From Sabellastarte sp. h YS-2021 (taxonomy: Eukaryota > Annelida > Polychaeta > Sabellida > Sabellidae), in assembly GCA_964017235.1 (NCBI GenBank), contig OZ024933.1, positions 9,241,962 to 9,305,961 on the forward strand: a stretch of 64,000 nt of DNA. Direction: 5' to 3'. Of the stretch, positions 2,931 through 62,209 are shown piece by piece. Each line of letters begins with the position of its first letter. Positions within the stretch are counted from its first letter, which is position 1. The translations under genes were made by a program, and so were the position numbers. The notes under the pieces were generated by a model that saw nothing but the letters and a program-made list of their open reading frames with translations, searched no databases and had not been told where the DNA came from.

Positions 2931-5739
2931 CAACATGAGTGTGGCCTCATTAATTGCAAGTCACAGTACCCTGCTTACTGTCTTCTCCAAAGTAGACTTA
3001 CAGTCAGATAACTTGGAGGCACCAGGATCAGATACTCCCTTTCCTTCTGAAAGACTCTCTGATGAAACCATCAATGTGTTAGTGGCAGCCAATCAAATCC
3101 TCAGTACTAACCCACAAAGGCAGAAAGGGAACAAGATACCCAGAAATTAACAGCCTGGCACCTCCAGAGAACCAGTCCCAGAGTCCAAGCCAATTTACCT
3201 GAGACTCAAGAACAGTCATAGGAAAAAGATTGCCTTAGCTAGCCAAATTAGTAAGATGCACAGTGAGCTTCTGAAGAATATCTACCCAACTAGTGTGGAA
3301 TTTAAATTTAATGTCAACAAGAGTAAAAGTGATGGAGTTCAAAAGTGCATGGTCTACTATCATTAAAGAATGCAAACAAAAACTCACCAAAGTCTTGTTG
3401 CATGATATTTTCTCAAAGAGCTCACAAGTCAAAGATAACATCAGTAAAGATTTCCTGTTGTTAGAAGAAATACTCACCGCAACACAACTGAAAGAGATCA
3501 AAGATTCTCTCAAAATCAGGTGCACCAACATTACACCCACGTATACTCTGAAGGCCAAAAGGCAATATGAGTCCAAAAGATCAAATCAGGAACAACAGAC
3601 CAAATGAAGGATGGTTGTCCCACAGCGAAGAAAGAAAGACAGAGAGCCTGAGTTACAGAAACTCATAACACAGCTCAAGAAAATCTTGAAATAACTCTCA
3701 AAGTTTTTTAAATAGCATTACACTTATAAAATATTTTTATACTACATTTGTGTACATACACCTTTCTTCACACCACTTCATCATAGTGGTGCAATTGCAC
3801 TTTTAATAAAGTACCTTATGAACACTTTTAGTCTTAATCTTGGATAAAACAAATTTAACATGGCTACTAAGCAAAAGATTGAATTAGCTTCATTAAGTGC
3901 CACATCAGGCATCTTGCCTACATACACTAAATTTGAAAGCTACATAGACAAAAATGTGATCAATCTATCGAATGTTCAGTTAAGTGAACACCAAGTCAGG
4001 GCCTTGGAAAAATGGCTCACATTTTGCCCAACACCGGGGCATCCTGACAAATCCAGGATTTGGGATGACTTCAAGAATTCCATAGGAGATTACAGCTAAT
4101 GCAATTCTTCTCCGATACTTAACATTCACTTCCTAAATGAAAATGCTAAGACCTCTGATCAAGCAAAAACTCTAAGTGATCCATATAAAGAGAGCCATTC
4201 TAAATTCAAAAATAAATCATCATGGGCACCAAACCCTCCAAACAAAACTCTGGAGGTGTTCAAAAGGGCGTTCAAAATGAATCTCGTACAGGCTAAGATA
4301 CCCCCAAGCCAAAAAGACATCCTTACCAAACAAGAAAGACTAGGGCTACCAGAATTAGCTAACAACCTAAACATTGTCATTAAGAAGGCTGACAAAGGTT
4401 CTGCAGTAGTTGTCATGCAAACTACTAATTACCTATGGGAAGGATATAGGCAATTAAGTGACAAGGAGTTCTACACCAAACTTAAGGAGGACCCCACTTT
4501 AGATATCTCAGAAAAGATATGTAAAGTTCTCACTGAGATGAAAAATCTGAAGATAAACACTGAAAAGAATTTTGACTATCTTAATGTAAAACACCCCAAA
4601 GCTGGGAGGAATACATCCCACATGTAATATCAGCAAAGTTGTGAATGCACATATTAAAGATTATGTCCCTAAGACAAAATCTTATGTAAGGGACACCCAA
4701 TCTTCATTAGTAGACTGAAGGAATTGGGCAAAATCCCTCAAGGAGTGCCATTAGTCACCCTGGATGTGTCATCCTTATACACCAATATTCCAAACCATGA
4801 AGGAATATTAGCGATAGCAGCTCAACTAAGGAAGGATAGGACTAAGGACCCAATTACTCCTTACATCCTTATATGGGTACTGCACTAACACCCAATTATG
4901 CTAATCTATTCATGGATAGGTTCAAAGCTAGTGCCCTCAAAATTGGGACAAACAACTTCTCATATGGCTTAGGTTCATAGATGACATATTCATGATCTGG
5001 AATCATGGTGAATCAAAACTCAAAAAGTTCCTGGAATACCTTAATAACATCCATGACAAGATTATATTTACTCATGAATTTAGTAAGAATCTATCAATTT
5101 TCTGGACACTACAGTGAGAATTGACACCACAAGAGAGCTATACACAACACTGTATGAAAAACCTACGGACACACATCTGTACTTACACTACACTTCTGCA
5201 CATCACAAGCCTTGCCACATAAAATGTCCCTGTGGACAATTCCTAAGGATACATAGGATTTGTTCCAAAAATGAAGATTTTATTCACCATGACATAAAAT
5301 TGACTGGATACTATCTGAATAGAGTGTACCCATTTAGGGCCCTCAAGAAACATATGCTCAAGACAAGTGCTTTCACACAAGATGAATTATTACTAGTCAA
5401 ACGAAAGAAACCTTTGACACAGATGTCATGGTCACCACTTACAACCCAAATAACCCGGACATTAAAGGGTTCATTCATAAGAACTGGAATATTACTGAAC
5501 ATAGTAATGACTGTTCAAAAACATTCAAGGATAAACCCCTAGTTGGTTACAAAAGATTACCTAACCTTAGGAACTTACTAACCAAGGCAGAAATAGCCTA
5601 CCCACCCACTACACAAGACAAAAGTGTTATCAAACCCACAATATGCACCAGACTCGGTACATGCAATTACTGTCCACTGATCACTAATATTAGTGAAGTA
5701 TAGTGCAAAATCACACACAAAATTACCAAAATCTCAAAA

Positions 5740-6009
5740 GTGCCCAAACACATAACTTGTGAATTAATTGATATCATTTACTTAATCACTTGTAAAAAGT
5801 GTAATAAATACTATGTGGGGGAGACAGGGAGACCGTTCAGAAAAAGAGCTAATGAACACAAACTGTCAGTCTCTAAACCCAAGGAAACTAGAATTACCCC
5901 AGTCTCTAAACATTTTCCTGATAAGGGTCATTCAATCAGGGACATGCAATTTTCTCTGCTGGAATGGCGTTCCCTCAAGTATAACACTCCCAAAAACATA
6001 GAAAGATGA
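5740..6009 (+). CDS. GIY-YIG endonuclease domain of the PLE
   Basis: The frame contains DIIYLITCKKCNKYYVGETG, where the ITCKKC and YYVGETG blocks are the GIY-YIG core as found in Penelope-like elements, followed by RPFRKRANEHK (the catalytic Arg helix) and, near the end, PVSKHFPDKGHSIRDMQF with the conserved His/Gly region. The domain nicks the DNA target for priming. It ends shortly before the element's 3' untranslated region. Only the last exon-like block of the element is intact in one frame. Confidence 0.85.
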   Translation: MPKHITCELIDIIYLITCKKCNKYYVGETGRPFRKRANEHKLSVSKPKETRITPVSKHFPDKGHSIRDMQFSLLEWRSLKYNTPKNIER

Positions 6010-11981: not shown

Positions 11982-12293
11982 CAAATACTATAGCAATAAA
12001 CATGACCAGCTTTCCCAAGGAATCAGTTGAAGAAGGATCAGTAGCTGAATATATGTGTGAGACCAACTGGTCTGACTGTACTGACCCTCCTGCTGTAATA
12101 TGGTTTGTGGATGAAGAGTCTGTAAATGCAAGTGATGTGCACACTATAGAAACTTACTCATCTTCTACTAGTAGAAAAAGTACCAAGAGTACTATGACAT
12201 TTATAGCAGACAGGATGTTCAATAATAAACAAGTGAAATGTATCTTGGGGAATGGTTGCACAAAATTCAATGAACACACACTGAATGTGACAT
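11982..12293 (+). CDS. Receptor exon: Ig-like domain 1
   Basis: A whole Ig-like domain in one exon. The first Cys is in AEYMCETNW, the core Trp in AVIWFVDEE, and the second Cys in NNKQVKCILGNGC. The exon follows an AG at 11980-11981 and stops before GTAGGT, leaving one base of a codon; joined to the next exon this yields a Tyr before PPE, the usual end of an Ig strand G. An upstream AG at 11951-11952 is an alternative acceptor. Earlier exons probably exist because there is no start signal here. Confidence 0.7.
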
Positions 12294-15200
12294 GTAGGTA
12301 TATCTCACCACATGTATAATAAAGGTAGACATGGATTATTCCTACTTTACAGAAATATTTTGTAAACACCCATTTATTTCCAGTTACAACATCTTGACAT
12401 AAAGAAGTAAGCAGTATTTGCCAGAGCACCCTGTATTTTAAACTTTTAATATTTCACTTCTGGTGTGTTCAATTTTTTCTTAAATTGCCACTTGAAAAAG
12501 TTTGTAAATTGATTTTCAATGACATATTAAGTATGGTAAGTTTTTAGATTTTATCAGATTATATTCTTATATCAGTTAAACCAGGTGAACTGTATATGAA
12601 AATAGGAGAGGCAGTGATTATCAACTGATAATTAATTAAAGATTTCTATTTCAAAAAATTTGTGCTATGAGTCAAAATAAAGTGATTTATTGGTTTCAGA
12701 ATGTAAATAAAAGTGATCATTTAGCCAAAATTGAATAACTTTTTACAGGTAAACTTTTTAATATCTAACTATATCAGAGTGATAAACTGGCTAAGCATAT
12801 GACTGTCCTTCAATTTCTACATTTTCGGTGTTTTAATGCACATATCCACATGAACTGCAGGAGGAAGTAGCCTGGCAATAAATAAATATAGGCCTTTGGC
12901 TTATTCAAAATAAATTTGGCAAATTATTTGTTGGAATTTATCTCTTTGATAATAGTTAAAATATGGAGTTTCTATTACTAGCAGCAAAAGCTTGAAACAA
13001 AAGACATTTCTCACATATCAAAATTTGCTAAATATAACACTTATTTACAGCTTTTAGATTATCATTATTTTTATTACTTAGATCCACCTGAAGTATTTGT
13101 AGAAGGTACAAGTATACCTGCTGTGGAATACACAGAAAGAAAATTAGAATGCAAAACAGTAGGTGGAAACCCATCAGATCCAAGTAGCTATAACTATGGG
13201 TGGATGTCCAAGACCACTTATAGAGTCTCAAATACCTTCAAGATACTCTCATCTGGTATGTTTAACTGAAATTACTTTTAACAAATGATTCAGTCTGTAT
13301 AGATTGGGTTTTAATAGAGAAAGTCACATTTGTGTAAAGTGAAATGATGTATTATATTACATTTCACTTGCAGAAAAATAAGAGTGTCCTTAGTGTAAAT
13401 TAACGCCAAAATGAACCCATACTTTAATAAATGGTGCAATTGCACTCTGAAAAAGTACTTCAGAGGAGATGTTAGACTTATTCTCCAGCCTCTGATGAGA
13501 TAGCACGATAAGACTACTAAAATACTGTTGTGTATACAATTACAACAGTTAAGGCCCAATTGAACAACAATTGTTTCAAAGTGAACTCTCACTGTGACCT
13601 ATAGCACTTCTGATTTTGTTTTGCTTTACATTTTACTTGCAGTTGGTTATGTATGTAAATATATATTTTAATATCTTGTACAATACATATTGTAAATAAG
13701 TATTGGAAATTGAATTGCACCTTGCTGGCAATTAGAGACTGTAACACTGATAAAATAGTAAATGATTAAAATGCTATCTGTTCTTCTGGAAACTTATGCA
13801 GCATTATTGCACTGTTTTTTGAGTTTGTCACTGAATGAATGCACATGCATGCGGCGTTTTAGCAAAACTGGAATAAACCTTGATAAAATAATATACATAG
13901 GACAAAATAGTAAATTTTAATTTTAAAATCATGGAATTTAATTCCTTCAATCTTTCAAACAGATATATCTTTATTTAAAGTTATTATGCTTTAGGAATTT
14001 CTATGAAAAATTCTGGAAAAACATTACAGCTCAATAAGCTTGGCTACAAAGAGATGGCAGGTACCTACAAGTGTACTGTGACAGGTATTGGTGGAAACAG
14101 CAGTGGAAATGGTACTCTGGAAGTGTACTGTAAGTATTTATTTGAAAGCTTATACACTGAAAAATTATTTCTTTAGTACACAAGCCAAACATATCTTTTG
14201 AGACTGATCAAAAGTAAATCTAAAAGTGTTTTTCATTGTCAAAAGGAATTTAGGCTGGTGTTTTTCTTTAATTATTTTCATGGAACAAGATGCATTATGG
14301 CTAATCAATAATTTGTATTTGTAAAAATGTATTTAAAAGTTTGAAAATGAACTGTTTGAGATTATTTCCAAATTGTTTCACATAATATCTGAATATTTTG
14401 ATAATATTTCAATATTTTTCAAGCACACAGTGTAGTGCGGGTAACATTTGATAAAAGATTTTTTCACCAATCATTCCAATTTAGGCCATGATAAATACCA
14501 TGAGTAAATATGAGGTAGGACAAAATATTCAAAGAGTATGATTTTTTTTAAAAGGATGGGAAACATGGCAAACTGAAATGCCTTTGTGTGATAAGAAATC
14601 TCTAATGCCAGATTCTTTACTACCACATAAAAATGACCTTTATATTCTCTACTTTGTAGTATTTTATTGCTTAGTAAATCATGTAGTGGGAGTTATGATC
14701 CTTCATGCTTAAATACCATATTTTGTTATATTGGTAGATATTTTTTTTATTTTGAGAAATTATCTGCAGAGTGTGACTTAGTCTGAACCCTAGATATGCC
14801 ATATCATCATGACCTCTTGTACAAATACTTCTTAGCACATCATGCAGATGTTGAACAGAATGGAAGTACTTCAGCTTCATGAATAAAAAAATAGCGTGCA
14901 CTTTTTTCTGGGATTTTATGTCAGTAGAACAGGTAAAATTTGAGTGATCGTGAACTGACGAGCAAGACTTATTTACCTTATTTGTTTTTTGCCAGATGCC
15001 AAATGCTAACATGGCATGTAATTACTCCAACATTTTTATATTCTAATTTTGTGGCTGTAAATTTAAATGATGAACATGGAAACATATTAGCTATACTAAG
15101 GGTCCTTGTAATTGTATTTATACTCAGCATAATATCTCCATATACAACAGGACTCAAAACGGTATTAAACCCATCCGACTGCACAGGTACAGCCCCAACT

Positions 15201-18200
15201 CACAAGTAACTGACATTCCCCTAACGGGAAAGTTAGAGACTCAAGGATAATAATTTATTAATGTCCTTGAGGTTCTTTAGCCTATCACTAGGGATAGGAC
15301 CCAATGACAGAGGACTGCCATTTTAAGTGGTCATCCCAGCCACTATATATCTGCCTGTACCTGGGTTTAAACCCAAGTCCTCTCAGTTCCTCAACAAGTG
15401 TGTTGCCCGCTAGGCTACAGTGGTAGATGTGCCACTTCATGATATTTCTATATATCAGTGTAAATAGACTCCATCATGTAGCAACGTTGTGGTGATTTTT
15501 TCAGATACAGCTAAATCAGAAAATACAGCTGAGGACATGACTGTCTACGCTACCCTGGATTCTGCAGCAAATCTGTCTGTGAAATTTCATATGAATCCTG
15601 TCAGTAATTACACCGTTCATTGGTCCATGGGTACCTCAAATGGCCTGAAAGATAGCAATGTCAATAATACAGTGAAAGGCAATAATGTGAAGACCACCTA
15701 CTTTATCTCAAATGTAAGCAAGCAGCAGCTGGGAAAGTACACAGTTCGAGTCATCAACTCAGCTATTACAAGTGAACACAATGAAGCCATATTCAGTGTC
15801 ACATTAAAATTGCTAGGTAACAAAAATAATATTATGCTATGTTTAAACCTAAAAGTTTGGAAACCAGGTTTTACTTATCTGCATACTATTAAAACACAAA
15901 ATATTAAAGAAACTTTTATTCTGATTTCAGGACAGAATAGCAGTTAGAACTATTGACACCTTTAATACTAGTATTTATTTGGGTAGAGTTACAATGTCCA
16001 TCTTTTCTATGACAATTTCAATGCTATTTCTTAGCGAAAAATATGAGGAAAACAAGGAAAAGGAGGAAAACTAAGTATTAGTATTTCATAATGCATCAAA
16101 ATTACATCGACGAAGTGAACTGCTATAATTAATATACATTATACCACTATATCCACTCATTTAAGAGGTGTTTATGCATGAAATATATAGAAATAAATGG
16201 CATGTATTCCCTGTCAATCCAAGTAACCTATTAAAACTTCTCTGCAGCTGTGTTATTGTCTGCATTTTCTTTAGCAAAGTTCATCTCCAACTATATTTGG
16301 TTTTAACAATCAATGCCAATATGCATAATTTTATAATATAATTATTTACTTCAGGACAATGTAGCAAAATATTGATTTATTTGGACCACCATATCATACC
16401 TTGTCAGATCCCCCAAAAATATTAAATATTTCTGACTTACATCATTATAGTGAAAACTGCTGTGACGACAAAAAAAATTATTTATAATTGGTACCATACT
16501 GCTGTGGTATTTCAAGGTAAATGATATGTTTTAAAAGTTTTAGGAAAAGGCTACCCTTTTGATGAGTTAGGAACAGATTCAGTAAAAATTGTCCCAATGG
16601 CATGCTACAGACTATCATTACCAGACAATGGTAATAATTTGGGTAGGTTTTCAAGTATATTTTTTATAATTTGTTGGAGATGGATGTTCCAAAGACAATA
16701 CAATAGCAAACACTTTTAATAAAGCCCACAGGAACATATTATATTCTATAAATGTTGCATGTAATTTTAGGTCCCCCCGAAAAACCTGTGAATGTAGCTA
16801 TTCTTGCAAAGTCACACACTAGCATAACAATTGCCTGGGAAGCAGGGTTTAATGGTGGATCTGAACAGCACTTTAAAATCCTCTATCGTGAAAAGGGTGA
16901 AAGAAATTACCAGGAAAGCCATGATAGCATCACTGGCCTCAAAACTGGACAGAGCATAAACTACACAATACATGAACTTTATGCAAAGACAGAGTATGAA
17001 ATCATTGTTGTTGCCATAAATCAATTCAAGAACAAATCACAAACCAAAGCTGCTGCAAAATTTGCGATAACTGGAGGTATGATTTCAATGTAAAACACAA
17101 GTTATATCAAAATAATTGTTGATCAAACTGTTTTCAAACTTTAAAAAAGTCAAATAAATCTTTTGACATTGTTTCCTATGTTAATATTCGCTGAGTGGAT
17201 GACAAAGTATAGACCTCTTTTTTAATTTGAAAAGAACACCCAGGTGTTTGATGAAGTATGCTGTACTTTTACACCTGTGGAATACATTCACATTTAGAAC
17301 AATGCTGAGATTAATCACTGCTTAAAGGTGTATATTCATATTTTAAAAGTGCTCTAATTTCATTTTCCATGTATTGATAAGTCTATATAATGGTCATTTG
17401 GGTGAAGATTTTGGAGAAAAAAAGCCTATTAACATATAAAAACAGATGTATTGTTTCATTTTTCACAAGATTCGGGCCGATAAATGGTGATGGCGCTTGT
17501 GAGGCTTGGTATTTTTTATCAAAACAAAAATACGGCAGAAGTCATTTGAACAGCTGTGGCTTACGGGTGATATATCTTTATTTTTAAAAGAAAAGAAGAA
17601 ACCACAAGAAAAAATCTCAAAACTAGGAAGCAACATGGGCATCTTTTGAAGAGTGGATTACTGTGATGACAGATCTAGGCATTTTAATGACTTGTTGCTC
17701 TTGTAGGGTAGGAGTATTATGAAAAAAGCTATAGCCTAATTTAAATATATTCATCTCAATTTCAGTAACACAAACACATTTTATAACTGTGTACCAACAC
17801 AACGGTCTAGTCTCATGTTACATATACTGCTAAAAAAATGTCTGACTTGTCTTTATAGCATTTTTTCCAAAAATATGGATCCCAACTCTTTGGAACATAA
17901 AAGGTTAGCCTTGTAAAAGACACACAGACAGAGAATATATGTATATGAGTTTAAAGTAAATTGGTCTACAGAACTCACAATTAGCTAGCCTTTGCTTACT
18001 GAAAAAATTTACCAAGAACCTACAAATAACTTAATATTCAGCAACTCTTCACTGTTTGTAGAGATTCTGGCAACTCAGTGTAAATTATTACCAATGTAAA
18101 TTACGTTAGAACTAGAACTAAAGGGACATTTTTTAGTACTTTTTTGCATAAATAAAAAGGAAACATGCACATAATGACCAATAATAAACTCATAAAAGAT

Positions 18201-21200: not shown

Positions 21201-24200
21201 TTGCAAATTGGTAATGCATTACAGGTTGTCACCTCTGTGTGACACAAAAAATTACCTATGAATGTTTCATTTTTGGATGAAATGGCGATCAATGGTTGGC
21301 CGTACATTTAATTATTGGATACATCTTAACACGTATGGTATACAACATTAAGGAATCAAAATCTATATTTAAAAAAAATCTTGCTTTGGAATATAAGAAG
21401 AACCAGTTTCCAGCAGACTATTCTTTGAGAGTTCCATTCTATACCAGATGAGCTACAAACGAAATCCTAAGTAGGTAAACTAGATAAGACAACATCAACA
21501 TTTAGTGTGAGCCCAAATTAGATTTCTATAATGTGCAAATATTTGCCTATTATTCTATCATGTAGCAGATTTATCTTACAAACATACTCAAGAGTGCTAC
21601 TCATGGAAACAATTGAATATATCTAGTGTCACATAAAACCGTGCATGGAAGATTGTGTAATTTTGCCATTACAGTATTTTTGCTTAATGTTTATTTCATA
21701 CAGATAATGGAAGACTGAATCCAACAACAATTGCTATGGGTGTATCCCTAGGTTTGGCCATCACTATAATTATTATTGGATCTACCCAGTACAAGTCAAG
21801 AAAGTCTCTACAAGGTGCAGTATAACTTGACATTAATCATAATCATATAGCTTTATGCAATTCTTCACCATTGTGATAGAATATAATATGGTTTTATCAC
21901 ATGGCTTCTGCTTTCCAAATTACAGTGGTTATAATCAAATCTTCTGTACTAAAATAAAACTTTTGTGAAATGAGATCTATCCATTTTCAGACATGGAAGA
22001 ATTTTCGTCCTCTTTTGTATGCGGTAAGTGTTCACTGTAAATGTACATGTGTAAATGTATATATGGAAAAGGAAGAATAATACCAGATATTGAACAATCA
22101 CAGAAGTTAAATCCACAACCCTTCTAGTGATAATTTTTTGTCTTTACGTATCAGTGGACAACTGTTGTATTATTATGTTTCCTTTGTGCAATGATTCAAA
22201 AGTGTAATTTCATTTGTTCCTTTATTGACACTACAGTGACTAAGGTCGTAGAGAGATTGCTTACGGAGTATAAGTACTAACGAATATACAAAATTAGGAA
22301 ATTTGCTATTTTAGGACAAACTCCTGGGAGTATGGGGCAGTAAATAGAGATATCAAGTTCTCATGTAAATAATCCATGGACAAAAAAATAAGTCAGTACC
22401 AGACAGAAAACCCATGCATGAAAAATACAGAAAAAGCTTTTGCATAGAGATAGAATTTCAGCTTCCTTTCATTGGGAAATGCATCTGAGCAAATATTATG
22501 GGGCAATTCATTGCAAACTTTTGGAATGTCTTAAGCGACGCTAAAACTCCAGTGCTTGGTATTATATGCTCATCAGGATTCCTGTGTGCAGTACTTATGG
22601 TTTTCAAAAAGGACTAAAATGTGTAAGATAGCTAGTTATCTTATAAGTAATTTGCAAACTAATAAAATGGATTAAAATATGTAAGATAGCTAGTTATCTT
22701 ATAAATAATTTGCAGACCAATGTTGACATTTTAAATACAGATTGCTGTTAAAACCACATATAGTGTTGTGTTGGTGGCCAGTCATACCCAGATTTTTCTG
22801 AATACATTGTAACTGATTCGGATAAAACTATAAATATTCTGCATAAAATACAGTAGGCCAGAGAACTGCTTTTGCCAGGTCTTCTTCTTCATTTCCACTG
22901 CTGCCTGTCTTGACATTGTGGCAAATGGCATTCTAAATGTTTTGTCATTTTCAAAGACATCTGCCATTATCCTTACATTTTTTGTCCCTTTGGTTCTGAA
23001 CCCGCTGATCCTATAGTACTCCATATTACAATTAGTTGCAACCTCTTTGTTGATTTAGTGCATGTCAGGAGACCTGCATTTGCTTTCATACTGCATAGGA
23101 AGAGGGGACTACAGGGAATGCCAGGCATGTACCATTAGATGCAAATGTATGTTGATCACAAGATTTTTGTGCATGACCTGTAACTTCATACTGCGGTATC
23201 TCCTCTGATAAGTTGCCTGTAAAGCTAATATTAGTTGTGTATAAAAAAGCTGCCATGACATTTATACTCCATTCATTCTCACTATTACATCAAGGAGAGA
23301 AGCAAAGACTTGAATTTTTGAATTAATGAAAATAATGAATCTTATTAATATGTGGTTGGCACACGGGCAGTAAATGCTAGGAGGAAAAGGCTGGTCCTTT
23401 ACCGGTTGTCACTGAGACACAAGACAACCAGGAAGCACGGCTCAACTAGGTGACACAATATACTCCCCTGTCAAAGGACACGAAAAGGACTATGATGAAA
23501 CAGTCACCAAAAAGAGGACATTGAAGAAAATCCAGCTGACAGATCAGGAGGATGTCCTAGTAGACTGAACCAAGGACCAGCTCATTGTAAGCAATAAGGG
23601 AAAATAAGGAATACAGGCATGAAGATAACACTCTCAGAAGAGCAGTCTACCATACCTAGTAATGTTAATCATCTGAGAGAGTGGCCTTCCAACAGCCAGA
23701 CACAATCACGGAGGAGGAGGATCTTAAGGTAGGAGACACCAGCTTCAAAGATACACAGGTACTATAGTGTCATGGACTAGTATCCCCAGCCAGCAGTGTG
23801 TCACAGTGACTAAAGACAACCCTTGAGGATCAAACCTATCACCATATCTCCTTGGGTTACTGGATCTCCTGTGAAATGTCAAACATCTATCTAGAGATCT
23901 AGACCAAGTTTTAGCATATAGCCTTTAGAATAATCAATTCTGTTTGACAAAATTTGATTATGCTGCATTGGGTGGACAATGAAGAGGAGACTAAGCATTG
24001 TTTCTTGTATTTTCCTGTTTGTATTATGGAAATAAAGATCAAAAATGAAAATTATGAAAATGCATCACTATTTTATCGTTTAATTACATGTTCTCTTTCT
24101 CTTGGCTTCTGTGTAAGAAATAGCCCATAGTTGTTGGTGTGTGACCGTGGTGACATGTTACGACCTTTGACATGATGGAACCCACAATATATAACTTTTG

Positions 24201-27200
24201 GTCAAGCACATTTTATTGTTGACCAGATGGAATCCTAAATGCTTAACTGTTGTGATCACAAATATTTAAGAGTTTTTGCAACCTGAAATGCAAATAATTA
24301 ATTTTGTTTATGGAAGAAATAGTGGACATGTGTTGGTCAGAAAGACATGTATTTTTCTTCAGAACATTATATTAAACATGACATGTGTTTCTAACTAGAA
24401 TACATGCACATTTATCACGGGCAATATTTTTAATCGGTACTTTTTCAAAAACTTCTTTCATTGTGAAAAGTATATGTACTTTTCATGTGCATTATTTCAA
24501 ATAGTCCAGAACAGATACACTCTTACCATGTTTATTATTTAACTCTGTTGAGTCACACCATCTGTTGTTGCTATGTCACTGCAATTGTAGTAGTTTTTAA
24601 AATAACAACCATGCTTCTTGGAAGTGTTGTATGCACTATCAGCTTTTGTGTCTAAAATGTTTAATCCCTGTCGCAAATGACCTGCTTCAGGTCTGTCTTG
24701 GTCATCTTTTTTTTCCAACAGCACCTGGTGTATACATGGATATTCGTATAAGGTGCATTTCTAGTAGTCCTGCAGTAAATCTGTTACAAAACAACCACAT
24801 GTATTTTATACCATTCCAAAGTTATTTTGCACAAGAAAGTTGGTAGTTGAATATTCATTGATCACATTCACAAAAAAACCTGGGCTTCAGGACAATGAAT
24901 ATGATCTGAAAAAAAACTGCATATGATCTGAAGTGACAGATTCTGACACAGATATATGAGCATATTCAGAAACAGCATAGAGGTATCATTGCAATTTTTG
25001 TTAGATGTAGAATAGTTGTTACACCATGTCCATTGATCATCGCTGTTTGAGGCTTGTACACAGGTGTAAGGCTATGGTAGATATAAAATCTAGATCATGA
25101 ATCTTTCTGTTCCCAGTGACTACAAATCTGCAGATGGGGTTTTACATCCTGTTCACCAGCCAGGACCTTATTGAGAAAGGTCCTCAACTTCGGCACTTGT
25201 TGGAGTTAGTCACACACATAAGTGACAGCCTATGCTTAGATGCCAAACCTGCTAACAAATTGGCCATGGAGGACCTTCAAACATAGTAAATCAAAGCACT
25301 GTTCTACATGAAAACGGAAACAACAATTACAGCTGCATCACATGTAAGATACTACGTAAAGTTCCTGTTATCCCTGATTTTAAACAATCAAGAGCAAGCA
25401 CTGCTTACATGACTTGAAAAGAGTAAGACTGAGTCAAACCATGCAATTACTTCAGCAAGGCTGGAATATTTTTTTTTATTTATGTTTCAAAACAGTCGGA
25501 GTTTCTTCGAAAGAAAATTTCTATACATTATATCAGATACAAGCAGCCTAGCATAAGAACAGCAATGTGTGGTTATGCATGGTTCTAACATTTTCTAATT
25601 TTTCAGAATGCTGCCTACCTTTTGTTACATCTTTTTGTTACATAATAGAGAGAAAAATATTAATAAATTGAAAGATTATTTGAGCTAGTCTACATTTACA
25701 AGGGATGTACAGAACTCCAAAATCACATTCCAAAAAGAGTAAGGAATCGAATATAAGAGGGTTTGGGGCATTAAGTTCTGGACTATGTTAAAGACAACCA
25801 TGTGTTTTATGACATGCCAAAAGTCATTCAGATATCTTGCAAAAGTCAGTTTCCAGTATGAAATCATGTATACTGCATTGTAGACAATTTTCTGGGATAA
25901 AAGAAATGATTAGGTACCAATAGACTTGATCATAGTCACTGATACAGGCTATGCTGAAACAGCCTACGGTTCAGCAGTCATATTAGGTGTCCACCTGTAT
26001 ATGAGCACAGCAAAAGAGAATTATCACCTTTTTTCTGAGCATTTTTTTTCGGTATCACCATATCTCTAGCTCAGTCACAAAAGCAACATGCACACATAGA
26101 AACTATCTCAGGGTAACATTTGATTTCAACAGTATTTAAATTTGTGCACATGCACACTTATCCATCTGTAAACTGCATATTACTTTTGTGCAAAGCATTC
26201 CAGGTACAATCAGGTACAATCTTGTGGGTATTACTTTTGTGCAAAGCACACACTCCAGTACAATCAGGTATAATCTTCGATGGCAGATTTACACCACAGG
26301 GAGCCAATAGACACCATTCAAAGTTTAATCTAGCTGAGCCAAATTATAGCAGTGATCCGTGTCTTTAAGTTTGGTAGCACTTGCTAAGTGCACAAGTCTA
26401 TACATAGGCAGCGACGTGTGCTATTAAGTGTAGTTAAGCAAACAAGTGCTTTATTACCTAGAATTGTTTTATTTAAAAATAATTTTGCTAAATCGTGAAT
26501 TAAGCATACTGATAAATATATAATGCACAACAATCATGACTAAGTAAACTGTTAAACAGACAAAGGAACAACTAAATAATTATGTTTAGTATCTGAAAAA
26601 AAATACAGCTAAAATTCAAATTTATGTGTTTAAATTTAATACTCACAGCTAAAGGAAAGTTTATGAAATATGTAAAAAAATTAAATATAAGTGCTGTACT
26701 GTGAAACATATCACTGTTTCATGACAAATGACAGCGGCAGTGATGACTAATTAAAATGTTTTTGAAGCTGTTTGTTCAAGAAAATATAGATAAACACTTT
26801 TCATAGATTCATTCTTTCTAGTTCAACATCGGGTGGAGAGGGCTAATTCAGAGCAATATGATGGGCTTAATTTGCATGATAGAGAGGAATCTACAATTTA
26901 TCCCCGTGTCTACCGTGATCTACAAAGAAACACCCGGGAAACTGCAGGTAAAATTTGTAATAATGATATTGCTTTCTCCCTGAAGACTACATGATGTAGG
27001 GAATACACTTATACAGCCACAAGAGTGTGCACATATATGCATTTCCTGGGTAATGTAAAAGACCAGAAAAATATACCATACAAAATTTATACCCTGACAC
27101 ACTCAAATGGGATTTCATTTTCTGATCTCAAGTATCAAAAAAAAAATCAAAAGGAAAACTCCACCCACTCAAAAAGAAAATTGTAGTAATAGTGTTAAAG

Positions 27201-30200
27201 TGATGAACTTATTTTAGACTTGAAAGGATAGGAATAGCAGTCAGGAGCATATTTACAAGTGTAAAAGTAACACTAATGTATCAGGTCTTTTGAATCACAT
27301 TAATATTTTCAACCATTGTAAAGAACAAACCTTAAATCTATAGTGCCACTGTAACAATAAAAATATTAAGGTAGATTTACAGGTGAAGAAGGATATGAAG
27401 TCATTCCTGAAACAGCCTTTACGGGTGAAACAACTAGTGATTTAGGTTTGTGTTATTCTTATCCTTCTATTTTGTTTTATGCAAGTCATAAAATTCAGCT
27501 TTGCTTTGGCAAAAATTTGGCTTCCATGTCAGAAAACTTTTCTCTAATCAAAATTAATCTATTTTTTCATCAAATCAGAACATGGCTACACAAGTAACAT
27601 TTTCTTACACTAAAATATTTATGTTCCTTTAGTGAATGTTTTTGTCAAATTATGGTGGGTATTTCGATAATAAAACTGAAGCATGTGTATACTGGGTAAA
27701 ATTTTATTTAGTAACTGTATAAACAGTGATTTGAACTGACAATAATATATAGTTTTCACAAAATATTTACCAATGCACAAAGGGATGAAGTCGTGAAGTT
27801 AAAGTAAACAGTGCTTAACTGTGAAACTAGAGTTACAACATGAGTTAGTGTTTTGATAGTACTGGTATTTAACAACTTTTTAAGAATTCTCAGGAATAGT
27901 TTAGGAAGGCAGAGTCTAAAAGTTAAATTAACGACTATAATGTCTATTTTTCAGACAATCTTGAGCCTAGAACCAGCACTAGCAAGGCATTGTTTCATGT
28001 CCTTTGAATTGTTATGCCTGTGGCAATTACACATTACTCACAATTCAGTTTTGAATATAGTTGAGCATTATGACTTAAAGCAATATATTTATGCACAAAA
28101 TTTTGATACTGATATGGTTAATGAGAAATGTAAAACTGTTTTATACAATATGACAGAGCTTAACTTTTTCAACAAGAATTATTGGTAAAATCATGTACAA
28201 TGTGACTTTAGAGCTTGCATCATACGATGTATAGGTATGATATGTAAAATCTGACACAATTAAAGTACAAAAATTTTGCAAAACAATTTTTGTGATAATG
28301 TTCACTTGAACACCACATCCTCACAGAAAGAAACAATTAATGTCAGATTGAGGACCAATATTGTCAGTTGTACAACAGTTATCAGTCAGTTAATATTTTA
28401 TTGATTTCGCAAAGGAACTAAATACTTTAAATCTGGGAATAAAATAAGAGATCTGAAACTGTGTATGTTATTATACGTAGATGATATATTGTAATTATCT
28501 CAGAGAATGAACAGAAATTGCAGAAACTTTAAGATCACGTCCAAAAATGGTGCAAAAATGGCAATTGAATTTAAATATTGATAAAACACAAACTGTACAT
28601 TTTCACAAATGCCATAAAAAGCAGACTAGGTTTGAATTTTAAAAAGTTGTGGTAGTTTCCTAATATAAATATCTCGGAACTTTCCTTGACAAGTTTTTGA
28701 CATTTAGTGAAAATGTTCAGACACTAGCAGATTCAGCTGGAAGGGGTCTTGCCTCGTTCATATCTAAATTTAAGCAATTTAAAGATTCTGGTTACAGAAC
28801 TTATGAAAAAATGCATAGCACTTCTGTGGTACCAGTTTTAGTTATGGGGCAGGAATATGTGTGTGGGGGGGTTGTCAAACATGGGCCAGCAGCAAAAAAT
28901 TATAATAGGGCATTACGATATTTCTTAGGTGTAAATAAATTTACGGCAAATCTATTCTTACAGGGAGACTCTGGGTGGCTTCCACCAAAATATGTGTTTT
29001 ATTTATCTGCATTACAGTACTGGAATAAATTTTGTCAATTCGATAATGCACACATACCAAAGCAGATATTTAAAAGGACATTTCAATTTAAAAAAATATT
29101 ATACCTGGGTGAAGAATATTGAAAAAGTTTGGATTTACTAAACTTGTCATCCTATTTTTTTGGAAAGAAGAAAGGTTGACAAACTTGCAAGAAAGTTTTG
29201 GAAAATAGAACTTGCACTCTTTGTAATCATGAAAAGATTGAGGATGAGATTCATTCTCTCTGTGTCTGTTTCCAATTAGAATTGATTCGTCGAAAGTATT
29301 ATGAAACATATTAGCATCTTAAATCCAGATTCAGTAACCTAGACAATGAAACTATTTTTTTATATGAGTGAAAATCATTCTCAAATACTTGGTAATTTGA
29401 TAGTTGACCTGATGAAATGAAAAAAAAATATTGTTTAGAGATCATACTGCTATTTAAAAAAATCCCATTATTGTTTTTGTGGTCCGAAATAATCCACCAC
29501 ACAATATCATTGTAATTGTATTTCACAGTGACTTATAAGCCCTTCAGGGGCTGGGTGATGTTGCTTATATTGTTTTGTATATTTATGTAATGAAATTATA
29601 TGTCGCATCACTAGGATAAAATAATTAATAAATAATATAAAGTAGTTAAAACTTTGGTTTACAAATATAGCTACTGCCCAAAATCTGTCAATGTATCAGC
29701 ATATAATGTATCTGGAGTAGCAATTATTCTTCAAAAAGTATGATTTTAGGTATCTACATTAATGCAAGCAATGTATATGTGTTTCTAAGGACAGGAGAAC
29801 TAAGGTGATGTTAATTTGATGATGATTAAAGTACAAACAAAATGCTACTTTTTAGTTGAATTTTGAATTAATCATATAATATCAATGCAAAAGCAAAGTC
29901 TATGGCTTTAAGGTTCTATGTTATTTTCGCTAAGTTAAATTTTCCAACAGAATCTTTGAGCAAAAATATATTTTAAAACATATTTTATTAGAAGGACATG
30001 TCAGTTCAAGCATTTCAATTTTTTTCTGCTACTAACTGAAACTATCTTTCACATTAAAATCATTAAACAGTAACAAGACAACTTGCTAAAGCCAATATCA
30101 GCAAGGCTTTTAGATGTAGTAGAATATCAATAATGTTTCTTTCTTACAGTTTTATTGTATCAAGTTTTGCAATTTTTGTGTCCACAAATAGATAGCACAC

Positions 30201-30952
30201 ACAACAACCACATTTTGGGTATTGTCAAATTGAAATCTATCTGGATATACGTTATATTCAAAAGATAAAGATATTTTACAGACTAATAATTTATCAGTAC
30301 TTAGTTTGGATGAAAATGATAAAACCTACAGCTAATAGTGGGTATGTAAATAAACTGAGACTTAATGGAGAGAGTTAATGAAAAAATGCTAAACAGATGA
30401 AATCAATTTACAGATTTAAAAATAACCATTAAAAATAAGGTCTATTTACAGGGGGAGTAGGATATGCAAATGTACCTAAAACTGTTGTCTCCCATGCAGG
30501 AAGTGATGATTCAGGTTTGTATTTAAACTTATTCTGTTATATAAAGCATTATTTAAAGTGTATGCTTAATTTTTTTTATCTTTGACATCATATTTAACAT
30601 ATTATGGTAGTTATTTCAATGATAAAGTGAAAGTAGCTGAATAATAGGTAAAGAGTTACCTGTCAGTAGGAAACATTGGGCTTGGAAAACGAATTTGTAA
30701 CCATTTCACAAAAGTAATACTCTTTTAAGTACATGAAAACACTTCTTAACTAGAAAACTGGAATTATGATTCATCTAGTTTAATGCATAATGTTTCAAGT
30801 TAATGATTGACTATATTTTCAGTTGTAAGACATAAGTAATAAACTTTGCTTACTTTATCGCTGCATCAAAAATGATAAGACTAAGGAGCAATAAAAAAAC
30901 TGTAAAATCTATTTGTATCACAGACTATCTTGAACCAGTAACCCAGCACTAG
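11982..30952 (+). CDS. Ig/FN3 transmembrane receptor with tyrosine-motif tail
   Basis: Span of a host gene assembled from exons at 11982-12293, 13082-13255, 13996-14129, 15505-15816, 16771-17076, 21704-21814, 21991-22023, 26822-26947, then 27383-27445 and/or 30452-30514, and 30924-30952 with the stop. All internal exons begin and end in phase 1 with GT-AG introns. The product is a type I cell-surface protein: three Ig-like domains, one FN3 domain, one membrane helix (IAMGVSLGLAITIIIIGS) and a tail of about 90 residues with at least six tyrosines. Motifs seen in the tail are YDGL, TIYPRV (ITSM consensus TxYxxV), YRDL, YEVI, VGYANV (ITIM consensus; also the YxN form liked by Grb2 SH2 domains) and YLEPV. 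By domain order it resembles nephrin/Kirrel-type adhesion proteins and invertebrate IgSF immune receptors; which of these it is cannot be decided. The N-terminus, signal peptide and promoter are missing or not recognised, so the start given is that of the first exon found. Confidence 0.75.
12294..13081 (+). other. Receptor intron
   Basis: Intron between Ig exons, bordered GTAGGT and TTAG. I see no further exon or repeat inside it. Confidence 0.5.
13082..13255 (+). CDS. Receptor exon: first half of Ig-like domain 2
   Basis: Begins PPEVFVEGTSIPAVE and includes RKLECKTVGGNP (first Cys of the Ig fold) and YNYGWMSK (core Trp). It is 174 bases, phase 1-1, with acceptor TTAG and donor GTATGT. The fold is completed by the next exon, so this domain is split by an intron, unlike domains 1 and 3. 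Confidence 0.75.
13395..13620 (+). repeat. PLE head repeat, copy 3, diverged, inside an intron
   Basis: This intronic segment shares the block from GGTGCAATTGCAC through CTCCAGCCTCTGATGAGA to the closing CACTTCTGA with the head repeats at 2605 and 7845. Here the CTGATGAG box is perfect, but the partner GAAA box is changed. It is an older solitary copy. Confidence 0.6.
13996..14129 (+). CDS. Receptor exon: second half of Ig-like domain 2
   Basis: Reads KTLQLNKLGYKEMAGTYKCT, the classical strand E-F end of an Ig domain with the Tyr corner and second Cys (AGTYKC). The exon ends in GTLEVY, leaving a phase-1 T before GTAAGT. Length 134 bases. Two NxS/T sequons (NSS, NGT) suggest an extracellular, glycosylated face. 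Confidence 0.8.
14130..15184 (+). other. Receptor intron
   Basis: Intron up to the SINE-like insert. Open frames on both strands near 14671-15209 have no domain or splice support. Confidence 0.4.
15185..15430 (-). mobile_element. tRNA-derived SINE
   Basis: On the minus strand a tRNA-like head is visible: box A TAGCCTAGCGG (15407-15417) fits the consensus TRGYNNARNGG at every position, and about 32 bases later GGTTTAAACCC (15363-15373) fits box B with two changes. The anticipated tRNA-unrelated body follows to about 15185. A shorter related piece lies at 47075-47165. The insertion sits in an intron of the receptor gene. It is transcribed by RNA polymerase III if active; nothing shows it is. 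Confidence 0.6.
15505..15816 (+). CDS. Receptor exon: Ig-like domain 3 without the disulphide
   Basis: A full-length Ig-like domain in one exon (312 bases, phase 1-1, acceptor TTTTTTCAG, donor GTAACA). Core Trp is in NYTVHWSMG and strand F is QLGKYTVRVINS, where the usual Y-x-C Cys is Val; the strand B Cys is also absent. Such Cys-less Ig domains are known in membrane-proximal positions of adhesion receptors. There are several sequons (NLS, NYT, NVS). Confidence 0.7.
16544..16642 (+). CDS. Possible extra receptor exon
   Basis: An open phase-1-1 block with acceptor TTTTAG and donors at 16631 (GTAATA) or 16643 (GTAGGT). It would encode GKGYPFDELGTDSVKIVPMA followed by about 12 residues, an acidic linker with one Tyr and no Ig or FN3 feature. 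It lies between Ig domain 3 and the FN3 exon. Skipping it keeps the frame. It may be an alternatively used linker or a chance open stretch. Confidence 0.35.
16771..17076 (+). CDS. Receptor exon: fibronectin type III domain
   Basis: A complete FN3 domain in one 306-base phase-1-1 exon. It begins PPEKPVNVAI, has the strand B Trp in SITIAWEAGFNGG, strand C in HFKILYREKG, and the Tyr of strand F in KTEYEIIVVAINQFKNKS. FN3 immediately before the membrane is the arrangement of nephrin-like proteins. Acceptor AATTTTAG, donor GTATGA. Confidence 0.85.
17077..18490 (+). other. Receptor intron, first part
   Basis: Long intron between the FN3 and membrane exons. No further FN3 exon was seen. Short open frames around 17390-17587 and 18278-18487 have no recognisable content. 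Confidence 0.4.
18477..18722 (+). mobile_element. Possible gag-like fossil
   Basis: The frame contains MAVPDLNKFEGWQLYICVEQ, which resembles the start of gag proteins of Ty3-like LTR retrotransposons. The rest is not clearly alignable by eye. If real it is a short, old and broken fragment sitting in the receptor intron. Confidence 0.22.
19190..19525. repeat. Two-unit dispersed repeat with GGCA run
   Basis: After a GGCAGGCAGGCA run (19193-19217) there are two tandem, diverged units of about 140 bases. Each contains ATCT(C/T)(A/G)GAAACTGTAA then TGTAGGAAGTTAA and GACATTGATT and closes with CCTTGACCTATAAAAT or CCTCGACCTTTAAAAT. It looks like part of a dispersed repeat family; I see no coding potential. 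Confidence 0.55.
19526..21703 (+). other. Receptor intron, last part
   Basis: AT-rich intron sequence with no exon or element border that I can support. Confidence 0.4.
21704..21814 (+). CDS. Receptor exon: transmembrane helix
   Basis: Encodes NGRLNPTT, then the hydrophobic span IAMGVSLGLAITIIIIGS, then the basic stop-transfer QYKSRKSLQ. The exon is 111 bases, phase 1-1, acceptor CATACAG, donor GTGCAG. Basic residues on the C-terminal side support a type I orientation with the Ig/FN3 part outside the cell. Confidence 0.8.
21991..22023 (+). CDS. Receptor micro-exon in the cytoplasmic tail
   Basis: A 33-base exon with strong borders (CCATTTTCAG and GTAAGT), phase 1-1, encoding MEEFSSSFVC. It is open in the same phase as its neighbours. 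Being in frame by itself, it could be skipped without harm. Confidence 0.6.
22611..22722. repeat. Tandem duplication, 58-bp unit
   Basis: Two neighbouring copies (starting 22611 and 22669) of a unit containing TAAGATAGCTAGTTATCTTA, itself an almost perfect palindrome. The copies differ at a handful of positions. Confidence 0.8.
23385..23880. other. Compositionally distinct block of unknown origin
   Basis: The base composition is visibly richer in G and C than the surrounding intron. One plus-strand frame includes SPVKGHEKDYDETVTKKRTL followed by KKIQLTDQEDVLVD before a stop. No family is recognised. It may be a decayed insertion. Confidence 0.3.
24540..25460. other. Coding-like debris of unknown origin
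   Basis: A minus frame at 24539-24724 contains QDRPEAGHLRQGLNILDTKA, and a plus frame ending near 25288 contains LIEKGPQLRHLLELVTHISD. Both are more protein-like than the background, but neither is assignable. I infer remains of one or more mobile elements in the intron. Confidence 0.25.
26178..26277. repeat. Tandem duplication, 51-bp unit
   Basis: Two neighbouring copies starting at 26178 and 26229, each beginning TATTACTTTTGTGCAAAGCA and containing GTACAATCAGGTA. A recent local duplication in the intron. Confidence 0.8.
26822..26947 (+). CDS. Receptor exon: tail with YDGL and ITSM-like motif
   Basis: A 126-base, phase-1-1 cytoplasmic exon (acceptor TTCTTTCTAG, donor GTAAAA). It reads QHRVERANSEQYDGLNLHD and then REESTIYPRVYRDLQRNT. 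TIYPRV is an exact match to the immunoreceptor switch consensus TxYxx[VI]; YDGL and YPRV are separated by ten residues, close to ITAM spacing; YRDL is a further YxxL. These would be phosphorylation and SH2-docking sites if the protein is a signalling receptor. Phosphorylation itself is inference. Confidence 0.75.
27383..27445 (+). CDS. Receptor tail exon, cassette copy 1 (YEVI)
   Basis: A 63-base phase-1-1 exon encoding GEEGYEVIPETAF then TGETTSDL. It matches the exon at 30452-30514 in length, phase, borders (ATTTACAG before, GGTTTGT after) and the GY-x-x-[VI]-P core, so the two arose by duplication. The flanking intron sequence is also related. Confidence 0.7.
   Translation: MKKDMKSFLKQPLRVKQLVI
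27955..28007 (+). CDS. Alternative terminal exon, cassette copy 1
   Basis: After TTTTTCAG, in phase 1, this encodes NLEPRTSTSKALFHVL and a stop at 28005-28007. The first 27 bases are clearly related to the terminal exon at 30924 (AATCTTGAGCC against TATCTTGAACC), but a one-base length difference shifts the reading past the TAG used there, and the Tyr of YLEPV is Asn. If spliced to the exon at 27383 it gives a shorter tail without ITIM or YLEPV. It could also be a dead copy. Confidence 0.45.
28330..29640 (+). mobile_element. 5'-truncated LINE between the two tail cassettes
   Basis: Remains of a non-LTR reverse transcriptase: the YVDDI active-site box at about 28473, a broken palm-thumb region, then an open C-terminal stretch (28697-29122) with ALRYFLGVNKFTANL and GDSGWLPPKY, typical of LINE C-terminal regions, and a closing CTLCNHEK / EDEIHSLCVC zinc-knuckle-like motif near 29210-29270. 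The 3' end has a TAAT-rich tail (29615-29640). The 5' part, including any endonuclease, is absent, and there are stops and frame changes in the palm and after 29122. Clade uncertain. It sits in the intron between duplicate tail exons. Confidence 0.65.
29641..30451 (+). other. Receptor intron after the LINE
   Basis: AT-rich intron sequence. No exon or repeat is supported except the final acceptor region, which resembles that before 27383. Confidence 0.4.
30452..30514 (+). CDS. Receptor tail exon, cassette copy 2 (VGYANV, ITIM-like)
   Basis: A 63-base phase-1-1 exon encoding GGVGYANVPKTVVSHAGSDD. VGYANV fits the ITIM consensus [VILS]-x-Y-x-x-[VIL], and YAN is a Grb2-type SH2 site. Partner of the exon at 27383; intron sequence about 90 bases downstream (ATTATGGTAGTTATTTC) is also shared with the first copy (27649). 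Confidence 0.7.
30924..30952 (+). CDS. Receptor terminal exon (YLEPV) and stop
   Basis: After TATCACAG, in phase 1, this encodes DYLEPVTQH with the first base supplied by the previous exon, then TAG at 30950-30952. The phase, the join SDDS-DYLEPV and the existence of a diverged second copy (27955) support it as the true C-terminus. A possible poly(A) signal AATAAA lies at 31046-31051. Confidence 0.65.
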
Positions 30953-31045: not shown

Positions 31046-31051
31046 AATAAA
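31046..31051 (+). promoter_or_regulatory. Possible poly(A) signal of the receptor gene
   Basis: AATAAA about 95 bases after the terminal-exon stop. Such words are common in AT-rich DNA, so position is the only support. Confidence 0.3.
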
Positions 31052-54249: not shown

Positions 54250-56169
54250 ATTTTTGTAATGGTCAAGAATTTAAGTAAAACAGCTAAATGGAAACAAACC
54301 TCAAAATTCTTTAATAACAGGCAAAGAAATCCCACAGAACTAGCTTTTGCTGATTGCAACACAGAGATAAATCAATTCTCATGGGGGGCCTTAGCTAATC
54401 CTTGCTCTTTTAGGTGACGCAGCCCTTGTAAAGTCAGTTGGAGGTGGAATACAACAGGCCAAGTGAGTTCAGAGGTCAGGGAAAGGTCAATGCGATGTGA
54501 AAACAGACGGGGCTGGTTTGGGCTTTTATTTACATCTTGGTATTGAATATGTACACTATACAGGGTATTTAAAATATTTTATGTAAAACATGAAATTTTT
54601 TAAAACCACCATAAAATAAAATAAAATGTATAAGAACCATATAACACATGTAATATGATCACAGGTAATATAACACAGAGTTGGTTGGTATTGTTCTACT
54701 GATCATGTCTGTTAACAACACAGTTCAAGTTGCGAAAATAAGGTCAAAGTTGGTGTGAAGTTGGTGTGAAAGGTCAAACCTGAAAGCCTGGTGTTGCCAT
54801 AAGTGAGGACATCTACAACTGCATGATTATCACAATAAATGTGTACACATTTGTTGGCCCAAAAAGCAGCCCAAACCTTGAGGGCCACCACAACATTCAA
54901 CATCTCCAAGTGTACAATGTTATAACCATTAAAGCACTTGGGAATGGGAATGGTGTAGACAAAATAGCCTTGTAGACAAGCATCAGGATATATGCGAATG
55001 TTAAGTGGTTAATGTCATATATAGTAATCCCATTGTAAGACTTGAGGAAAGTCTGAAACCAGACTAGATCTCTAAAGAATTCACGAGTGAGGACAACATG
55101 ATCATTCTCAAAATTGTCTCTCAACAACTGTAACATACGATTTAAGAAGTACCTAGCTGGTTAAACACACTTGGAAATGTATAATAACAGGCCCAACAGG
55201 GACTTAAGTTGACCTTTGATGACAGTTCTCTTATCTGACCACTCATGACAAACCCTGACAATCTCAGATAACTTATTAGAAGGTATAGATATGGTTCTGT
55301 CAATAGTGTTGAATAAAATACCTAAGCAGATAACCTTGGTATCTGAAGGACACAGCTTCTTATGGCTAATATCCAGACCTAGGTCCTGCAACAAGTTCAA
55401 CAAAAATTGATAAGATTGGTGGGCAGTGGACGGCAAACCACAGTATATGAGGTCATCAATGTAGTTCATTAGGGCATTATGACCATGTCTTGCCATGATA
55501 TATTTAATGCTATCGCTTATCTTACTAAAGAAAAAAATATATTAAGCGATATCCGAAGGGAACCGACAGGACCAGATAAAGCTGATTTTTGTGTTGCAAA
55601 CCTAATAGATCAATATTACCTGGGTCAATTTTTAACTGCCTAAAAGCTCGGCTAATATCGACCTTGGATATTCTAGCCGAAGGACCCAGAGCCCGAAGAG
55701 TTCGGATAATGGAGTCTACTGAAGGGTAATGCATTTGAAACTCTGTACCTAGATGAGATTTTTTTGCCACCCCATCATTAACTGATAGACCTTTGGGAAA
55801 GCTTAAATCTATAATAGCACGACAAGAATCGGATCCGGATTTCTCCCGGGTCATAAAGGGGGAAATATGCATTTTAATGGGTGGAGCATCAAAAGGTCCC
55901 AGTATAGCTTCAAACTGCAGCTCCTCTTGCACGTACTTGTCAATATGTTCAGAAAAGTTCTTAGCTGAAGCATGATTAACAAGAGTGCTTGCCAAGTGCC
56001 TAGATCTGTCAAAGTCAAGAGGAAACCCAAATTCAATTAGGTCACATAGTTGTTTGTCAAAATAATCACAGAGATGAGCCCTCCAACTGGAGATTTTCAG
56101 GTTAGTCTTTACAGGAATGCGAAGTCCCAAAAAATTGGGAATACCACACTTCCTAATCATTTTATGTGC
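54150..56169. repeat. Tandem duplication, copy A (2,020 bp)
   Basis: Base for base, as far as I can compare by eye, this is the same as 56174-58193. The four bases GAGA (56170-56173) separate the copies. The unit begins inside the PLE fragment (motif A region) and ends inside the DIRS-like RT region, so it spans the junction of two different elements. Every open frame of copy A recurs 2,024 bases further on. Confidence 0.9.
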
Positions 56170-56173
56170 GAGA

Positions 56174-62100: not shown

Positions 62101-62205
62101 GCATAGAAGATCAAGGTCGTATGAAGCCACCATGTCGGCAAGGAGAGGACAGGGAAACACTCTGCCCCCATTCAAACCCTTGTCCTGTGCCCTCTGAGTA
62201 CTGCC
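59180..62205 (-). mobile_element. CR1-like LINE, almost intact, inserted in the DIRS gag
   Basis: A non-LTR retrotransposon of the Jockey/CR1 group in the same orientation as its host element. One frame (59344-62685, shared with host sequence at its start) contains the apurinic-type endonuclease and RT. Seen in the endonuclease: DLLCLTETHI (about residues 191-201 of the open frame), GDFNIH (306) and SDHALVK (368). In the RT: LVLLDLSAAFDTIDH (729), GVPQGSVLGPLLF (790) and FYADDSQL (823). The C-terminal region CIQNSAARIV and LHWLPVEQRI is typical of CR1 relatives. The 5' end is truncated: no ORF1 and only the edge of the first endonuclease motif. The 3' end is a short TTAGAA-type repeat at about 59181-59205, as in CR1/L2-like tails. 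No internal stop or frameshift is visible after the truncation, so the insertion is recent. Confidence 0.85.
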
Positions 62206-62209
62206 CTGA

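Follow-up and report, generated by a model that had tools for sequence, protein, structure and literature searches.

We analysed a 64,000-nucleotide stretch of the 1.79-Gb genome of the annelid Sabellastarte sp. (G000:C7:9241962-9305961, in the following called the window) and found in it one plus-strand gene for a receptor of the immunoglobulin superfamily (IgSF), whose cytoplasmic tail carries tyrosines that recur in many paralogues. The gene reads in the order Ig-Ig-Ig-FN3-TM-tail, with three immunoglobulin-like (Ig) domains, a fibronectin type III (FN3) domain and a transmembrane (TM) segment. Exons were deduced from the plus strand via splice signals (AG acceptor, GT donor) and reading phase, and every recognised exon is of phase 1-1. 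Positions below are those of the window; E is the expectation value.

11982..12293, plus strand: exon for Ig-like domain 1 (Ig1), the most membrane-distal of those found; AG/GT signals and phase 1 read from sequence
13082..13255, plus strand: exon for the first half of Ig-like domain 2 (Ig2); splice and phase reading, 90 genomic matches at E≤1
13995..14129, plus strand: exon for the second half of Ig2 (GTYKCTV); phase 1-1, weak Pfam Ig_4 match only (0.074)
15505..15816, plus strand: exon for Ig-like domain 3 (Ig3), an I-set domain lacking the canonical pair of cysteines; Pfam I-set 1e-4, one bit below the curated cut-off
16771..17076, plus strand: exon for the FN3 domain; Pfam fn3 2.4e-10, above the cut-off
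21704..21814, plus strand: exon for the TM segment and a basic stop-transfer sequence (DNGRLNPTTIAMGVSLGLAITIIIIGSTQYKSRKSLQ); sequence reading and genomic matches
26822..26947, plus strand: tail exon T1, with YDGL and TIYPRV-YRDL; 48-copy alignment and codon rates
27383..27445, plus strand: tail exon T2, GEEGYEVIPET, which completes YRDL-x12-YEVI with T1; paralogue comparison
27955..28007, plus strand: degenerate E-type exon DNLEPRTSTSKALFHVL* without a splice donor; paralogue comparison
30452..30514, plus strand: tail exon T3, VGYANV (YxN); eight copies compared
30924..30952, plus strand: last coding exon, DYLEPVTQH-stop; identical early stop at the paralogous loci L009, L016 and L018

The window gene thus has Ig and FN3 domains and, after them, a single TM segment, the layout of a type I IgSF/FN3 receptor. 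An initial annotation of the interval 26822..30952 had proposed such a receptor, with a tail resembling SH2-docking tails, in an apparent invertebrate. The COX1 frame on contig C647 stays open only if TGA codes for an amino acid and AGA/AGG are sense codons, and is therefore not that of a vertebrate. This proposal is supported by the Pfam domains, the TM exon and the presence of the tail exons in paralogues, and the IgSF/FN3 identity depends on exons outside that interval. The peptides it had named are all present: YDGL and TIYPRV (26822-26947), YEVI (27383-27445), VGYANV (30452-30514) and YLEPV (30924-30952).

Neither Ig1 nor the first half of Ig2 gave a Pfam Ig match in the Pfam search. As Ig1 has no such match of its own, its Ig-like label rests on the cysteine/tryptophan pattern, its position and the PDB search with the joined ectodomain; the exon has 111 genomic matches, 60 of them at E<1e-9. 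The B-strand cysteine of Ig3 is missing from all six aligned copies, and the F-strand cysteine is present in one (L016). Compared with PDB by sequence, the joined ectodomain matched titin, RPTP sigma/delta, the angiopoietin-1 receptor, neogenin, contactin-2 and nectin-1, neighbours that put it in the IgSF/FN3 class and name no orthologue. A signal-peptide exon for this gene was not located in the window. At the 3′ end, AATAAA lies at 31046-31051, past the last coding exon. A candidate small exon at ~21990-22024 (DMEEFSSSFVC), in the interval from TM to T1, was rejected; its counterpart at L009 has no matching donor, other loci show none convincingly, and TM joins T1 in frame without it. The intron before T3 holds a 152-amino-acid open frame (28664-29122, plus strand) that appears reverse-transcriptase-like by eye and has no Pfam match.

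The tail was studied on an alignment of 48 T1 copies, taken from the window and from 40 other loci of the same genome. Codon rates come from a parsimony count on a FastTree tree built with 47 of these rows (L010, whose first residue had been written as start, was dropped). The tyrosine of YDGL is found in 47 of the 48 copies and that of VYRDL in 46, and L or I stands at +3 in 46 and 42 copies, respectively. Relative to the mean synonymous rate, the two tyrosines are replaced at 0.04 and 0.09, with an exon average of 0.66, which shows that selection keeps both of them. VYRDL overlaps TIYPRV and had been absent from the motif list of the initial annotation, which had listed TIYPRV as an immunoreceptor tyrosine-based switch motif (ITSM). 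Put to that annotation's own test, conservation of the motifs, on the paralogues, this SLAM-type reading did not survive. The TIYPRV tyrosine occurs in one of the 48 copies, that of the window, and its column is replaced at 1.09 of the mean synonymous rate, so that no conserved TxYxx(V/I) is found.

The other tail exons were compared in the same way. Both the tyrosine and the +3 isoleucine of T2 are retained in 19/19 aligned copies, and the tyrosine of YE[TIV]I is present in all 22 recognised copies. VGYANV in T3 had been read both as a Grb2-type YxN and as an immunoreceptor tyrosine-based inhibitory motif (ITIM), for which the consensus is (S/I/V/L)xYxx(I/V/L). The window sequence fits both. 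Across eight T3 copies the tyrosine is kept in seven and YxN in six, and the ITIM consensus appears in three. Leaving out L022 (single search, no AG at the expected place), the respective counts are 6/7, 6/7 and 2/7. Low-scoring hits were dropped as chance, namely T2 in L015, L025 and L048, T3 in L012, L016 and L021, and E exons on the minus strand of L009, at 4491 in L011 and at 4229 in L028. One L025 exon, either T2 or T3, was excluded before counting.

Joined in frame (the joining is assumed), T1 and T2 read YRDL-QRNTRETAGEEG-YEVI, i.e. YxxL-x12-YxxI. For the immunoreceptor tyrosine-based activation motif (ITAM), PMC3528668 and PMC6919295 state the consensus Yxx(L/I)x6-12Yxx(L/I). Among 19 joined tails the x12 spacing is invariant, and Yxx(L/I)-x12-YxxI is present in 18. 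An ITAM had been suspected in the tail, between YDGL and YPRV; the kind of motif was right but its location was not, as the pair VYRDL-x12-YEVI extends over two exons. We rejected YDGL-YPRV because its second tyrosine is the one found in 1/48 copies, and YDGL-YRDL because its spacing of x14 lies beyond x6-12. In a hemITAM, as PMC6919295 outlines it, a single YxxL/F follows a triacidic sequence; in GEEGYEVI there are two acidic residues, and the +3 position is I.

When the 101 residues of the joined tail were shuffled at constant composition, 0.02 ITAM-spaced pairs were expected against one observed (P 0.015), and 1.23 YxxPhi motifs against five (P 0.0019). A lone ITIM (P 0.25), YxN (P 0.25) and ITSM (P 0.064) were each near chance level. 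In a different explanation, the tyrosines would be YxxPhi sorting signals for clathrin adaptors and the protein a scavenger-type endocytosis receptor. YDGL, YRDL, YEVI and YANV formally match this pattern, and a tyrosine with a hydrophobic residue at +3 is found in 47/48 (YDGL), 45/48 (YRDL) and 19/19 (YEVI) copies. We nevertheless regard sorting as improbable as the main role, since conservation extends past YxxPhi (EEGYExIPET), DYLEPV does not conform to it and the x12 spacing is fixed. Sorting and signalling roles of the tail tyrosines are compatible and can coexist.

AG acceptors, GT donors and the phase 1-1 reading of the tail exons were found again in paralogues. As the exons are symmetric, skipping or repeating any one of them preserves the reading frame. 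At some loci (L024, L029, L030, L041, L043 and L046) two or three T1 exons are present, and T2-E / T3-E appears to be a duplicated pair. DY is retained in 19 of 26 copies of the E exon. The window E exon at 27955-28007 has AAGGCATTGTTT where paralogues have the donor AAGGCAACAG|GTGAG, and it reads to a stop; because this donor is lost, the exon is probably skipped or serves as an alternative end. The last E exon stops early in the window as well as in L009, L016 and L018.

Searching the genome with individual exons pointed to a large family, with figures that count matches rather than genes and are lower bounds. FN3 gave 117 matches at E≤0.01. A close group of 55 among them, the window counted, has E≤4.1e-23 and 52-100% identity, and two of its members contain internal stop codons; Ig3 gave 77 matches at E≤0.1. 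At E≤10, where the lists may include chance matches, there were 57 matches to T1 with the window exon as query, 97 with a C6 copy as query (several being tandem T1 exons) and 72 to the TM exon with a family-like TM sequence as query. Family matches lie on C7 at 6.8-16.5 Mb and on C2, C3, C5, C6, C11 and C14, with a few on C4. Ig3, FN3 and T1 follow each other on one strand at 24 places.

Two sets of repeated matches were seen on C7. The Ig1, Ig2, Ig3 and FN3 matches at G000:C7:9581395-9586913 and 9910633-9916121, ~329 kb apart, score identically and represent either a near-identical duplicated gene or an uncollapsed haplotype. At G000:C7:9716231, 9718630 and 9721029, the Ig2 exon has three equally scoring matches at intervals of exactly 2399 bp, which are tandem exon repeats.

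To describe selection on the ectodomain, seven C7 genes were compared, with tail exons matched to ectodomains through map position. The pooled ratio of nonsynonymous to synonymous rates (dN/dS) was 0.37 for Ig1, 0.32 for FN3, 0.46 for T1 and 0.70 for T2. The ectodomain is therefore constrained by purifying selection. Its dN was about twofold higher in Ig1 than in FN3 (0.222 vs 0.116), and a distal Ig domain that diverges more in this way would be in keeping with diversification of ligands.

Taken together, we favour the view that the window gene probably encodes a single-chain, ITAM-like type I IgSF/FN3 receptor of a large clustered family, signalling via its own tail. Near-unchanged tail tyrosines at the spacing of vertebrate immune receptors suggest, and do not yet prove, immune-type or recognition signalling. 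Ligand binding by the ectodomain would cluster the receptor, upon which Src-family kinases would phosphorylate the VYRDL/YEVI pair and a tandem-SH2 kinase of the Syk/Shark class could dock on it. The tyrosines of YANV (Grb2-type YxN), YDGL and YLEPV may attract further SH2 adaptors. Such signalling would be of the activating kind (phagocytosis, MAPK, effector release), not inhibitory in the manner of ITIM/ITSM. The ectodomains, specific to each copy, could form a germline repertoire of recognition specificities, and the role would most likely be in immunity or self/non-self recognition.

Several observations weigh against this view. The x12 spacing meets the ITAM consensus at the top edge of its range, one of the 19 genes (L027, with YNDF) misses the consensus, and L010 was counted among the 19 yet has no AG acceptor for T2 at the expected place. 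T2 was not recognised at 19 of 41 loci (window among the 41), mostly 3-kb stretches. The T1 rows were selected for resemblance to the window exon, a choice biased towards retained residues, yet the TIYPRV tyrosine was not retained. No overall positive selection was seen on Ig1 or FN3 (dN/dS>1 in 0/21 pairs each), and the short tail exons are noisy, with dN/dS>1 in 3/21 pairs for T1 and 5/21 for T2. Finally, 10 of the 48 T1 copies have an ITIM-compatible sequence at VYRDL.

The last point, together with the fit of the window's TIYPRV to TxYxxV and of its VGYANV to ITIM, would suit an inhibitory or switch receptor with docking of SHP or SAP-type proteins. We think this very unlikely. The switch tyrosine is confined to one copy in 48, the window is not among the ten copies with an ITIM-like VYRDL, and ITIM fits amount to three of eight in T3, 0/48 at YDGL and 0/19 in T2; a conserved ITIM is thus not found.

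We assign the activating, ITAM-like receptor to immunity as a matter of judgement, on the grounds of family expansion and the ITAM-like tail, and adhesion is a serious rival to this assignment. Here the proteins would resemble Nephrin/Kirrel, with tail tyrosines bringing Nck/Grb2/PI3K-type adaptors to actin after cell-cell adhesion and no immune role. Most of the molecules that the joined ectodomain matched in the PDB belong to muscle, adhesion or growth-factor receptors, and Ig domains with a single FN3 ahead of the TM segment are an adhesion-protein layout too. However, a structural junction accounts less well than a receptor repertoire for dozens of clustered copies with a constant YxxL-x12-YxxI. 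Furthermore, the Nck sites of nephrin are of the YDxV type, which is not among the motifs conserved here. On balance, we consider adhesion alone an unlikely explanation, if the strongest of the competing ones.

The C3 cluster at 182.0-183.9 Mb holds 16 of the 55 close FN3 matches and 23 of the 77 Ig3 matches, yet the T1 matches (57 or 97) and the 72 TM matches all lie outside it. Either its tail has diverged past detection or been replaced, or its receptors are soluble; perhaps this cluster encodes paired or soluble receptors. More speculatively, and with little confidence, one may envisage a protostome paired-receptor system. Clusters with ITAM-like tails (C7, C2, C5, C6, C11, C14) would then stand against the C3 cluster with related ectodomains and another or no tail. 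Together they would make up a recognition repertoire, diversified in the germline and of the activating/decoy (or inhibitory) kind, that could be likened to CEACAM or Alr complexes. A sister subfamily on C6 shows 26-37% FN3 identity in most of its FN3 matches. No tail was found in one 5-kb piece 3′ of an FN3 exon (L060), where a strict exon filter passed zero candidates and the open frames appeared retroelement-like by eye. Within C3, FN3 matches at G000:C3:183068072, 183245150 and 183422230 (also 183152821/183329883) lie ~177 kb apart with equal or almost equal scores, which suggests a recent segmental triplication or an assembly duplication.

We likened the family to known receptors by description, not by sequence homology, and do not assign it to Alr, FcoR or CgIgIT2. 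As general background, CEACAM proteins lack FN3, Draper is a CED-1 family receptor and not an IgSF member, and Sun et al. (2020) reportedly described a 'BCR-like' Ig receptor in oyster. The Alr complex of Hydractinia, with 41 IgSF members according to PMC11999971, is likewise an invertebrate IgSF family of one complex, and the account in PMC12065747 mentions ITAM/ITIM motifs on candidate genes. The fester co-receptors (FcoR) of Botryllus are type I IgSF proteins as well, with tails carrying ITIM, hemITAM or core YxxI/L/V; their ectodomain is given there as Ig-sushi-Ig-Ig, FN3 being unlisted in that account (PMC12065747), whereas the window family combines an ITAM-like pair with symmetric tail exons. 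Oyster CgIgIT2 is comparable as an IgSF receptor, and this mollusc protein is given a TM segment, an ITAM and ERK output in the review PMC11999971; it differs by five Ig domains, with FN3 unmentioned in the section concerned. The same review assigns it an ITAM but cites a title calling it an inhibitory receptor. By this account, a mollusc Ig receptor with ITAM-type signalling is already in the literature.

Mammalian CEACAM genes are similarly expanded IgSF genes, whose cytoplasmic exon sets carry ITIM/ITSM or a non-canonical ITAM, YxxLx7YxxI/M, as described in PMC2832619. CEACAM paired receptors exchange tails through exon-set exchange (PMC2832619), to be compared with the C3 cluster. They are vertebrate and differ in tail spacing, so the likeness is one of plan only. 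Drosophila Draper, in the part of PMC4503800 that treats it, is a single-chain invertebrate ITAM receptor acting via Src42A and the Syk relative Shark; unlike the window family, it uses an NPXY motif as well. Draper-Src42A-Shark is thus an invertebrate precedent for the proposed pathway. In the literature searched (titles and abstract openings) we found no description of this FN3-bearing clustered family.

If expression and phosphorylation agree, the family would amount to a large invertebrate repertoire of single-chain, ITAM-like receptors. It would then offer a test of whether clustered IgSF receptors with Src/Syk signalling have evolved repeatedly for recognition in animals other than vertebrates. 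As a practical lesson, a motif in a single copy, such as the switch motif, can be private noise, and paralogue comparison reveals the selected one.

Elsewhere in the window, mobile elements are apparent. Identical minus-strand reading frames at 54372-56181 and 56396-58205, 2024 bp apart, mark a duplicated retroelement-like segment. At 59344-62685 on the minus strand lies a 1113-amino-acid open frame that by eye resembles the endonuclease/reverse-transcriptase of a non-long-terminal-repeat element. Plus-strand fragments at 3151-6009, one with YVGETGRPFRKRANEHK, resemble by eye a Penelope-type element with a GIY-YIG endonuclease.
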